From the NCBI RefSeq assembly GCF_026932795.1, contig NZ_JADPVH010000002.1:62001-126000 (forward strand): a stretch of DNA of 64,000 nucleotides, in the 5' to 3' direction. This DNA comes from Paenarthrobacter sp. Z7-10. GTDB taxonomy: Bacteria > Actinomycetota > Actinomycetes > Actinomycetales > Micrococcaceae. Below, in pieces: positions 27,809 to 29,658 of this stretch; position 1 is the stretch's first letter; every line of letters starts with the position of its first letter. The notes beneath the pieces are model-generated. The model searched no databases. It was not told the DNA's origin and worked only from the letters and a program-made list of their open reading frames with translations. A program made the position numbers and the translations under genes.

Positions 27809-27888
<80 letters not shown>

Positions 27889-28064: not shown

Positions 28065-28277
28065 CTAGCTGGCAGTGACGTTCGGCCAGTTACCTGTCGC
28101 AGGCGAAACGACATTCGGCCAGTTGCCCGTCGCCAGCAACACAGCATTAGGCCAGTTACCCGTCGCAGGCGAAACGACATTCGGCCAGTTACCCGTCGCG
28201 ACGACGGCTCCTTGAGCCGAAATTGCACCGCCGGCAATGACTGCCGTCAACATCAGCGAAGTTGCGAGCTTCTTCAT
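28065..28277 (-). CDS. small secreted protein made of four ATGNWPN repeats (candidate signal-peptide precursor)
   Basis: 70 residues. MKKLATSLML then a hydrophobic stretch and AISAQGA form a Sec signal peptide, with cleavage likely at residues 21-26. The rest is four 11-residue units: ATGNWPNVVSP (27-37), ATGNWPNAVLL (38-48), ATGNWPNVVSP (49-59), ATGNWPNVTAS (60-70). ATGNWPN is invariant. No Cys, no lipobox, no sorting signal and almost no charge, so the mature part is not an enzyme or a usual anchored protein. The start has a weak AAGGG site; the minus-strand promoter (TTGACA at 28367-28362) faces that of the HTH-TPR regulator. A multi-copy repeat precursor next to an HTH-TPR regulator is what a processed pheromone gene looks like. 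A structural or antimicrobial role cannot be excluded. I do not recognise the family. Confidence 0.8.
   Translation of the reverse strand: MKKLATSLMLTAVIAGGAISAQGAVVATGNWPNVVSPATGNWPNAVLLATGNWPNVVSPATGNWPNVTAS
28068..28199 (-). repeat. four 33-bp tandem repeats within the secreted-peptide gene
   Basis: 132 bp made of four in-frame 33-bp units, each encoding ATGNWPN plus four variable residues. The first and third units encode the same 11 residues. Confidence 0.92.
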
Positions 28278-28327
28278 GAGACCACCCTTATTGTTTGGTT
28301 GAGTTGGTGTCGCACGTTTTCTACGTG

Positions 28328-28367
28328 TTGACAACAATTGTAAAATCGAGTGTAAACGAAGTGTCAA
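28328..28367. promoter_or_regulatory. overlapping divergent promoters with TGTAAA half-sites
   Basis: TTGACA at 28328 (plus) and TTGACA at 28367-28362 (minus) face each other; each has a TGTAAA or TTTACA -10-like hexamer after 17 nt. Between them, TGTAAA at 28339, TGTAAA at 28351 and TGTCAA at 28362 form direct repeats 12 and 11 nt apart, plus the palindrome ACAATTGT at 28334. A regulator bound here would control both genes. The segment is AT-rich compared with its surroundings. Confidence 0.55.
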
Positions 28368-28413
28368 GTAAATTATAGGCCTTCGCCATTCCGGCGAGCC
28401 TCAGGAGGAACCA

Positions 28414-29658
28414 GTGGGCAACAGTTTCGGAGACCGGCTACGGACAGAGCGCCTGTCGCGGAGCCTAACGCAGGCTGAACTTGGTGGTGACCTGTACTCG
28501 GCCAGCTATGTTTCACTGCTGGAGAATGGCCGCCGGGAACCAACCCCGGACGTCGTCAAACAGCTGGCTAAACAGCTGCAACTTGCACCGCATGCCGTGC
28601 AGGAATGGACCAGCCCAGTTTCAGAAGAAGAAGCAGGGTACTTGCTCACGGCACTCTACGCGAGACAATCCTGGGATATGCGGGACTTCGTCGCTGCCGC
28701 AAAGCAAGCCCAGACCGCTGCCGGTATGGCCCAAGCCAATCGGGACACTGTCTCATGGTGGAACATGGCCTACCTGCAAGCCAGCTCACTGCTTGAAAAC
28801 GCAGACTGCGAAGCCGCAAAGGAGACCATTTCCGAAGTGCTGCGGCATCCGCTATCACAGGAAACAGCCGGTTTAGCGGTGCGGGCAGAGCAGTTGCTGG
28901 CCTCCGCGTGTCTGGGGTTAGGGCAGTTGACCGAGGCCGTAGAGCACGCCGCAATTGCAGTGAGACGCGGCGCCACGCTCCCACACGAATCCAACGCCTA
29001 CATCGCGGCCCTTCGCACGCTGATTGCGGCACTGGCGGAAAGCGGAAAATTGGATGAAGCGTGGGTTCATTGCCAGACACTCGCTGCCCTTGTCGATGAC
29101 ACCTTACTGCCCCAGCTCGCGGGGGAAATCTACTGGGTAGTTGGAAACGTGGCGTTTATGCGGCACGACGTCAAGGAGGGGCTGTCCAACCATGCACTGG
29201 CGGGACAACTGCTCTCTCCCGCCAGTGACCTCGCTTTGTGGGCGAGGTTTAATAAAGCGACGGCGTCAGTGAGGTTGTTCGCAGGCGTCGTAGAGCCAGA
29301 CACATTGGTGGCCATCGAACGCGCGGAGCTTGCCCAATCCGTGGTTGGCGCCAATCCGGCCGACGTTTTGGAGGTGTCGCTCATCCGCGCGCAATGGCAT
29401 TACCTTAATGGCGACATGAAGGAGGCCCTACAACTGCTGACCCGGCTGCGTGAGCACCGAGAGCAGCTTGCAAAGCACACCGCCGGCGAAGCAACTTTCC
29501 TCTTGGGCAGAACCCTGAAGGCCATGGGAAAGGGTCAAGAGGCGCTAGATATACTTACCGAGGCGAAAGAGCTCTTTTCCAGCGCTGGCGCAGCGGATAA
29601 GGCTTCGCTGGCGATGGACAGCATCTTGGAGATGCGGGCCGCTGGAAAGATTCACTAG
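28414..29658 (+). CDS. HTH (XRE) regulator with C-terminal TPR domain, RRNPP-like
   Basis: 414 residues. Residues 1-62 are an XRE-type HTH (LRTERLSRSLTQAELGGDLY, SASYVSLLENGRREPTPDVV). The remaining 350 residues are helical repeats of TPR character: paired helices with small/large alternation, for example AEQLLASACLGLGQLTEAVE, LIAALAESGKLDEAW, GEATFLLGRTLKAMGKGQEA. This is the layout of Rgg/PlcR/PrgX-type receptors, where the TPR domain binds an imported peptide. The GTG start has AGGAGG 5 nt upstream. It is divergent from the repeat-peptide gene with 136 nt between the start codons. Codon use is less GC-rich than in the flanking purine genes, suggesting separate history. Peptide sensing is inference from domain layout and neighbour. 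Confidence 0.85.
   Translation: MGNSFGDRLRTERLSRSLTQAELGGDLYSASYVSLLENGRREPTPDVVKQLAKQLQLAPHAVQEWTSPVSEEEAGYLLTALYARQSWDMRDFVAAAKQAQTAAGMAQANRDTVSWWNMAYLQASSLLENADCEAAKETISEVLRHPLSQETAGLAVRAEQLLASACLGLGQLTEAVEHAAIAVRRGATLPHESNAYIAALRTLIAALAESGKLDEAWVHCQTLAALVDDTLLPQLAGEIYWVVGNVAFMRHDVKEGLSNHALAGQLLSPASDLALWARFNKATASVRLFAGVVEPDTLVAIERAELAQSVVGANPADVLEVSLIRAQWHYLNGDMKEALQLLTRLREHREQLAKHTAGEATFLLGRTLKAMGKGQEALDILTEAKELFSSAGAADKASLAMDSILEMRAAGKIH

Follow-up and report, generated by a model that had tools for sequence, protein, structure and literature searches.

Genes and features at the locus

The window, a 64,000-nucleotide stretch of the Paenarthrobacter sp. Z7-10 genome, encodes a short, predicted secreted repeat protein divergently from a regulator with an HTH and TPRs. 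Positions are counted from the first letter of the window:

28065 to 28277, minus strand: putative secreted precursor of a pheromone in multiple copies (70 aa, with the ATGNWPN unit four times); orthologous divergent ORFs exist in relatives
28206 to 28277, minus strand: predicted Sec leader, residues 1-24 (MKKLATSLMLTAVIAGGAISAQGA), called from sequence, with the cleavage site inferred from an A-x-A-type motif
28179 to 28199, minus strand: pheromone unit 1, ATGNWPN
28146 to 28166, minus strand: pheromone unit 2, ATGNWPN
28113 to 28133, minus strand: pheromone unit 3, ATGNWPN
28080 to 28100, minus strand: pheromone unit 4, ATGNWPN
28328 to 28344, plus strand: conserved operator-like site TTGACAA-CAA-TTGTAAA, an imperfect inverted repeat, present in HTH-type loci with a peptide
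28328 to 28368, no strand: phylogenetic footprint common to both divergent promoters (the site and an opposing TGTCAAG); promoter assignment inferred
28414 to 29658, plus strand: HTH-TPR receptor/regulator, 414 aa, XRE-type HTH at residues 5-66 and TPR superhelix at 71-413

The precursor starts with an ATG at 28277 preceded by the RBS AAGGGTGG (28282-28289), and reads MKKLATSLMLTAVIAGGAISAQGAVV-ATGNWPN-VVSP-ATGNWPN-AVLL-ATGNWPN-VVSP-ATGNWPN-VTAS. The leader opens with K-K, continues as a hydrophobic stretch and ends in AQGA, followed by four 11-codon units. Sec leaders were called for all precursors by inspection and hydrophobicity only, and the Phr_nterm model remained sub-threshold on the leader of the window precursor (18.2 bits vs a cut-off of 25). 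A longer frame of 100 aa with a TTG start is less likely because the leader would end up buried. The four core copies encode their T, G, P and N with varying codons, but all changes are silent and the amino acids are identical. The original prediction of a 70-residue protein with a Sec signal peptide, four 11-residue units invariant in ATGNWPN and a divergent HTH-TPR regulator 136 nt away held throughout. The leader is a prediction from sequence, the units are exact (VTAS, the last four residues of unit 4, forms the C-terminus) and the distance is correct to the base (gap 28278-28413). A tRNA-Pro(cgg) gene lies at 27809-27885, between upstream ABC transporter genes and the precursor gene. The genes purC and purD are located downstream of the receptor, an order retained in many genera.

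Architecture of the receptor

The receptor starts with a GTG at 28414 and has the RBS AGGAGGA at 28403-28409. Pfam matches include HTH_31/HTH_3 at residues 5-64 and TPR_12 over its gathering score, together with several weak, sub-threshold TPRs. An AlphaFold2 model based on 20 family sequences (mean pLDDT 91.9) consists of the HTH and a long superhelix of helix pairs reaching the C-terminus. The XRE HTH and long TPR-like domain claimed by the original prediction are thus confirmed. The prediction had also proposed modelling the regulator with its peptide; the receptor was modelled alone. A sequence profile match to PlcR of Bacillus thuringiensis spans residues 4-216 (E 9.6e-10), covering the HTH and the first TPRs, with the HTH contributing part of the match. 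Foldseek retrieved generic TPR proteins as the best matches, with PlcR-PapR7-DNA, Rap of pLS20, RapI and RapF also at E < 0.001. The fold match is not specific because eukaryotic TPR proteins (LGN) rank above PlcR and Rap. The Pfam, model, profile and fold matches together show that the receptor has the architecture of an RRNPP receptor, as judged from sequence and model. Common ancestry with RRNPP receptors is suggested but not proven, and convergence cannot be excluded. The residues W241, N245, H260, W276 and N280 are conserved among receptors and might conceivably contact the peptide; they were not placed in the groove and no binding data exist. The same genome encodes seven SBP_bac_5 oligopeptide-binding proteins (OppA-type), which is consistent with peptide import and with the predicted sensing of the peptide after import. 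Both import and binding are inferred.

Distribution of the divergent pairing

Of the 295 family genomes, 151 encode a receptor homologue; these represent 21 of the 32 genera, including Arthrobacter and Paenarthrobacter. A second family of the order also has homologues. Among 396 genomes sampled across the phylum, matches were limited to these two families and two genomes of the class. The latter two are large (about 8 Mb), and their receptor matches were weak and came without a W-P peptide. Searches of plasmid and phage collections with tblastn found no receptor match in either, and a plasmid or phage origin of the pair was rejected on this basis.

Upstream regions were inspected at 175 receptor places, of which 107 (69 HTH-type, 38 TPR-only) were non-redundant after removing copies with >90% identity. 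At 69 of the 107 receptors, a small ORF runs divergently and carries the core [VI]-[GN]-x-W-P-[DNYFH]; by type, this applies to 33/69 of the HTH-type and 36/38 of the TPR-only receptors. The same-strand control recovered such ORFs at 2/69 and 1/37 loci, respectively (Fisher p 4e-10 and 3e-17). The p values are based on uncorrected scanner counts; the pairing counts given here were corrected by reading, with L009 and L105 added and L144 removed (L numbers denote receptor or repeat loci). Chance alone produces loose scanner matches inside genes (16/69 on the reverse strand), hence the positional control alone was used. The two TPR-only receptors without a peptide are a disrupted gene in the window's own genome (C45, internal TAG) and a gene at a contig end. 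Roughly half of the HTH-type receptors lack a recognisable peptide gene, chiefly clade g25 together with some distant paralogues. One clade within the HTH type, with about 51-58% identity to the window receptor (L010, L020, L133, L136, L140-L153), has no recognisable peptide gene, and the operator-like site has lost its right half there. Its members may be orphan receptors.

HTH-type loci are syntenic across genera, in the order ABC transporter, pair and purC-purD, so part of the neighbourhood conservation reflects vertical inheritance. TPR-only loci sit elsewhere and this caveat does not apply to them. A screen of the 295 family genomes for a repeated W-P-[DN] DNA pattern recovered four matches in the window's own genome, all at its two receptor loci, and none in a receptor-less sister genome. 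The divergent pairing of receptor and peptide is therefore a family-wide trait and not a local oddity. Together with the silent-only differences among the four core copies, the recurrence of the pairing raises the observation above chance. The original prediction had proposed a search for GNWPN-repeat ORFs beside HTH-TPR genes and would have been refuted if homologous regulators never adjoined such ORFs. The search instead recovered the pairing across the family, at independent loci and with clade-specific cores, and in a second family of the order. In that family, the divergent precursor at L093:2734-2910 has three repeats of the TVGGSWPTSQDP type (GGSWPT x3), the same design with another core. 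One locus labelled as an Acidobacteria bacterium MAG (L036) has a precursor and a 70% identical receptor, the same receptor as in genome G032 of the window's own family; the assembly is likely mislabelled.

Core peptide and precursor formats

Across the 69 precursors, the six core positions are V/I (57/69), G/N (64/69), a variable residue (N, W, D, I, S, Y and others), W, P and D/N/Y/F/H (63/69). W and P are constant because the search required them; the other four positions were left free, except that the repeat rule set a loose class for the first residue. Core sequences differ between receptor clades. The precursors come in three formats. The first combines a leader with 2-8 repeats (e.g., VGDWPH x8 in L043). 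The second is Phr-like and has a leader and a single C-terminal copy with the stop right after the core (e.g., L068, ending in SIGWWPN). The third consists of 16-32-codon ORFs without a recognisable leader, again with the stop directly after the core (e.g., MKMLQTPNSVSSRTLVGDWPD in L161). A hydrophobic leader is found in 60/69 precursors and is not recognisable in 9/69.

Among 32 multi-copy precursors, 876 codon comparisons within cores revealed no amino-acid change and 241 silent changes. Linkers of the same precursors showed 186 amino-acid and 65 silent changes in 438 codon comparisons. Selection thus maintains the core peptide but not the spacers. This fits the release of identical active peptides from each repeat, as originally proposed, with the processing itself being inferred. 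The C-terminal end of the peptide is placed at the residue after W-P, a purely sequence-based inference from the ends of single-copy precursors. The last repeat in the genus-10 clade ends in WPDPM followed by the stop, hence P-M is possibly retained in the mature peptide of this clade.

Additional IGNWPDPM repeat ORFs without a clear leader are not located beside a receptor in four genomes of one genus (L187:3146-3331, L188:3624-3830, L189:3536-3688 and L186:3525-3902). The ORFs of L187-L189 adjoin glycosyltransferase-like and UDP-sugar-dehydrogenase-like genes. The four ORFs might represent a second pheromone source or a target locus. A further candidate for a receptor-less repeat ORF, L190, was rejected and turned out to be another TPR-only pair.

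The shared promoter and its conserved site

HTH-TPR receptor loci share the conserved site TTGACAACAATTGTAA in the peptide promoter. The common sequence at HTH-type loci with a peptide is TTGACAACAATTGTAAA (or TTGACAtACATTGTAA and similar), and in the window the opposing TGTCAAG lies at 28362-28368. A regular expression for the site matched 19/33 HTH-type loci with a peptide, 1/36 without a peptide and 0/38 TPR-only loci. The sole peptide-less locus with the site, L135, itself carries a frameshifted precursor. The exact site is found once per genome, at the receptor locus, in four genomes of the genus including the window's own, and is missing from one receptor-less genome of the genus.

A consensus scan of the gap at 28278-28413 gave no sigma-70 site whose elements are 16-18 nt apart. 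The gap had no Rfam match either, and an RNA element between the genes was rejected for this reason. Allowing up to three mismatches, the window's own genome contains the site only at the locus and at one unconvincing position, not more than a reversed control pattern; a regulon derived from the site was consequently rejected. The simplest reading, inferred without binding data, is that the receptor binds DNA and acts on the promoter of its own pheromone. The site could still be a core promoter element under selection purely for expression, a possibility that is not excluded.

Receptors without a DNA-binding domain

The window's genome has one HTH-TPR and one TPR-only receptor-peptide pair. 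The second pair, on contig 118, consists of a 352-aa receptor lacking the HTH and a divergent 62-aa precursor with AAGWWPN twice. A third receptor copy on contig 45 (L078:3890-4843) has an internal TAG and no peptide ORF, adjoins a resolvase-like gene and appears, from sequence alone, to be a decaying paralogue. In the receptor tree, TPR-only receptors form a clade nested within the HTH-TPR family. A GGDEF-EAL (c-di-GMP) gene adjoins 32/38 TPR-only receptors, often with a DUF7793 gene in between. At four TPR-only loci (L062, L064, L073, L166), a GH18/CBM5 chitinase-like gene takes the place of the GGDEF-EAL gene. L072 and L073 each have two tandem TPR-only receptors with a separate precursor per receptor; the cores are IDDWPH or IDNWPN for one and VGNWPG or VGNWPD for the other. 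PDB sequence matches of the TPR-only receptor included no Rap, and no Rap entry was among the best 50 fold matches of its model. The adjacency of a GGDEF-EAL protein to peptide-paired receptors without an HTH suggests a c-di-GMP read-out of the same pheromone language. Whether the TPR-only branch acts through c-di-GMP is inferred from gene neighbourhood only, and we see no firm ground to favour either answer. These receptors, the single-copy and leaderless precursors and the conserved operator-like site all go beyond the original prediction.

Relation to known peptide-signalling systems

RRNPP(A) systems are recognized by a small exported propeptide of 10-100 aa and a TPR receptor of 250-500 aa encoded by adjacent genes (PMC10075063). 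Their mature peptides have 5-10 aa and some precursors carry 1-4 repeats (PMC11343458). The window pair satisfies all five sequence criteria used for RRNPP_detector candidates (PMC10075063), with a propeptide of 70 aa, a predicted Sec leader (inspection and hydrophobicity only), a receptor of 414 aa (352 aa in the TPR-only paralogue), TPRs supported by TPR_12 and the model, and divergent adjacency at 136 nt. The RRNPP_detector survey covered Firmicutes and viruses but not Actinomycetota (PMC10075063), and large RRNPP surveys have been confined to Bacillota and viruses.

The pair resembles PlcR-PapR of the Bacillus cereus group, an RRNPP system, in the XRE-type HTH fused to TPRs, the small Sec-exported precursor, the adjacent genes, the profile match and the presence of 3u3w/2qfc among fold matches. 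It differs in the divergent order, the multi-copy precursor, the W-P core, the longer TPR domain and the Actinomycetota host. Rap-Phr of Bacillus likewise combines TPR-only receptors with Phr-like precursors and a mature peptide at the C-terminus, and multi-unit precursors (1-4 units) are known there, including the tandem-duplicated Phr3T/Phr105 (PMC11343458). In contrast to Rap-Phr, the TPR-only receptors here adjoin GGDEF-EAL and DUF7793 genes rather than Spo0F/ComA-type targets, precursors reach up to eight units, and no Rap sequence match was found. Leaderless 16-32-aa precursors beside the receptor in some relatives recall SHP-Rgg and leaderless communication peptide (LCP)-RopB (PMC10518010), but the peptide sequence is unrelated, ends in W-P-D and occurs in a different phylum.

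Open-licence literature (no preprints) describes intracellularly sensed peptide pheromones in Bacillota and their mobile elements, and actinobacterial quorum sensing as small-molecule based. Our search of it found no actinobacterial RRNPP-like case and no GNWPN-peptide paper, and no description of such a system in Micrococcaceae, as the original prediction had claimed; an earlier description elsewhere is possible. A W-P peptide-receptor family in Actinomycetota that likely works like RRNPP systems thus appears to be new, with its descent from RRNPP not settled.

Proposed mechanism and alternatives

Family-wide pairing, core-only selection, RRNPP architecture and the PlcR profile match support the original interpretation of a peptide-signalling pair. 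The pair likely forms a cell-to-cell signalling module that works in the RRNPP manner, with processing, import, binding, promoter effect and regulated genes all being inferred. The precursor would be exported by Sec, and extracellular proteases would then cut it into multiple 6-8-residue peptides that share the core T-G-N-W-P-N. The peptide would be re-imported, probably via an Opp-type oligopeptide permease, and bind the cytosolic receptor, encoded divergently, on the concave face of its TPR domain. Binding may change the way in which the receptor HTH contacts the divergent promoter shared by both genes, with TTGACAACAATTGTAAA as the most likely place. The putative outcome is pheromone autoregulation and possibly control of other genes, for which no second strong site was found. 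The data are probably best read as an RRNPP-like family of cytosolic quorum-sensing systems in Actinomycetota that use peptides, with membership by descent not settled.

The original prediction had also raised an antimicrobial or surface role. The repeat protein would then be an effector (antimicrobial or surface/adhesive) and the HTH-TPR neighbour a mere local regulator sensing something else. Bacteriocins and surface proteins also include secreted multi-copy precursors, the regulator may simply be autoregulatory, and some relatives have unlinked WP-repeat genes (L186-L189). Against this, single-copy and leaderless 16-32-aa precursors keep the terminal hexapeptide only, the core is acidic or neutral and not cationic, and no conserved immunity, modification or export gene was seen beside the precursor. 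TPR-only receptors are still peptide-paired in 36/38 cases despite having no HTH for DNA binding. We consider the effector explanation unlikely. Similarly unlikely, the peptide might be an autocrine ligand by which a cell senses itself (e.g., its Sec export or its uptake of peptides) instead of a signal to the population, with the same molecules serving another purpose. The 9/69 precursors without a recognisable leader speak for this, and autocrine and quorum use are inseparable by sequence alone; the leader is present in 60/69, however, and the 2-8 units and core diversification between clades resemble signal dose and pherotype divergence. Shared ancestry of two neighbours without functional connection would fit the synteny of HTH-type loci, but is very unlikely given the same pairing at separate TPR-only loci, the tandem duplicates with a separate core per receptor (L072, L073), the pairing with a different core in another family of the order (GGSWPT x3, L093) and the lack of the site where the peptide is missing (exception in 1/36, L135).

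Significance

A bolder version of the preferred quorum-sensing reading is an independent Actinomycetota branch of cytosolic peptide quorum sensing with one W-P pheromone language and two receptor kinds. The HTH-TPR receptor would control its own pheromone promoter and the HTH-less receptor the neighbouring GGDEF-EAL enzyme by protein contact, passing population density on to c-di-GMP. Taken as one joint claim, this version could equally well prove right or wrong. If true, this version would link peptide sensing to c-di-GMP. A family-wide, chromosomal and multi-variant set of pheromones and receptors would by itself extend the intracellular peptide-pheromone mechanism to a second phylum. The family offers dozens of natural pherotypes with predictable ligands. 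Within one gene family, the evolution of receptor kind (DNA-binding vs protein-binding) and of precursor format (many-copy, single-copy, leaderless) becomes directly testable.
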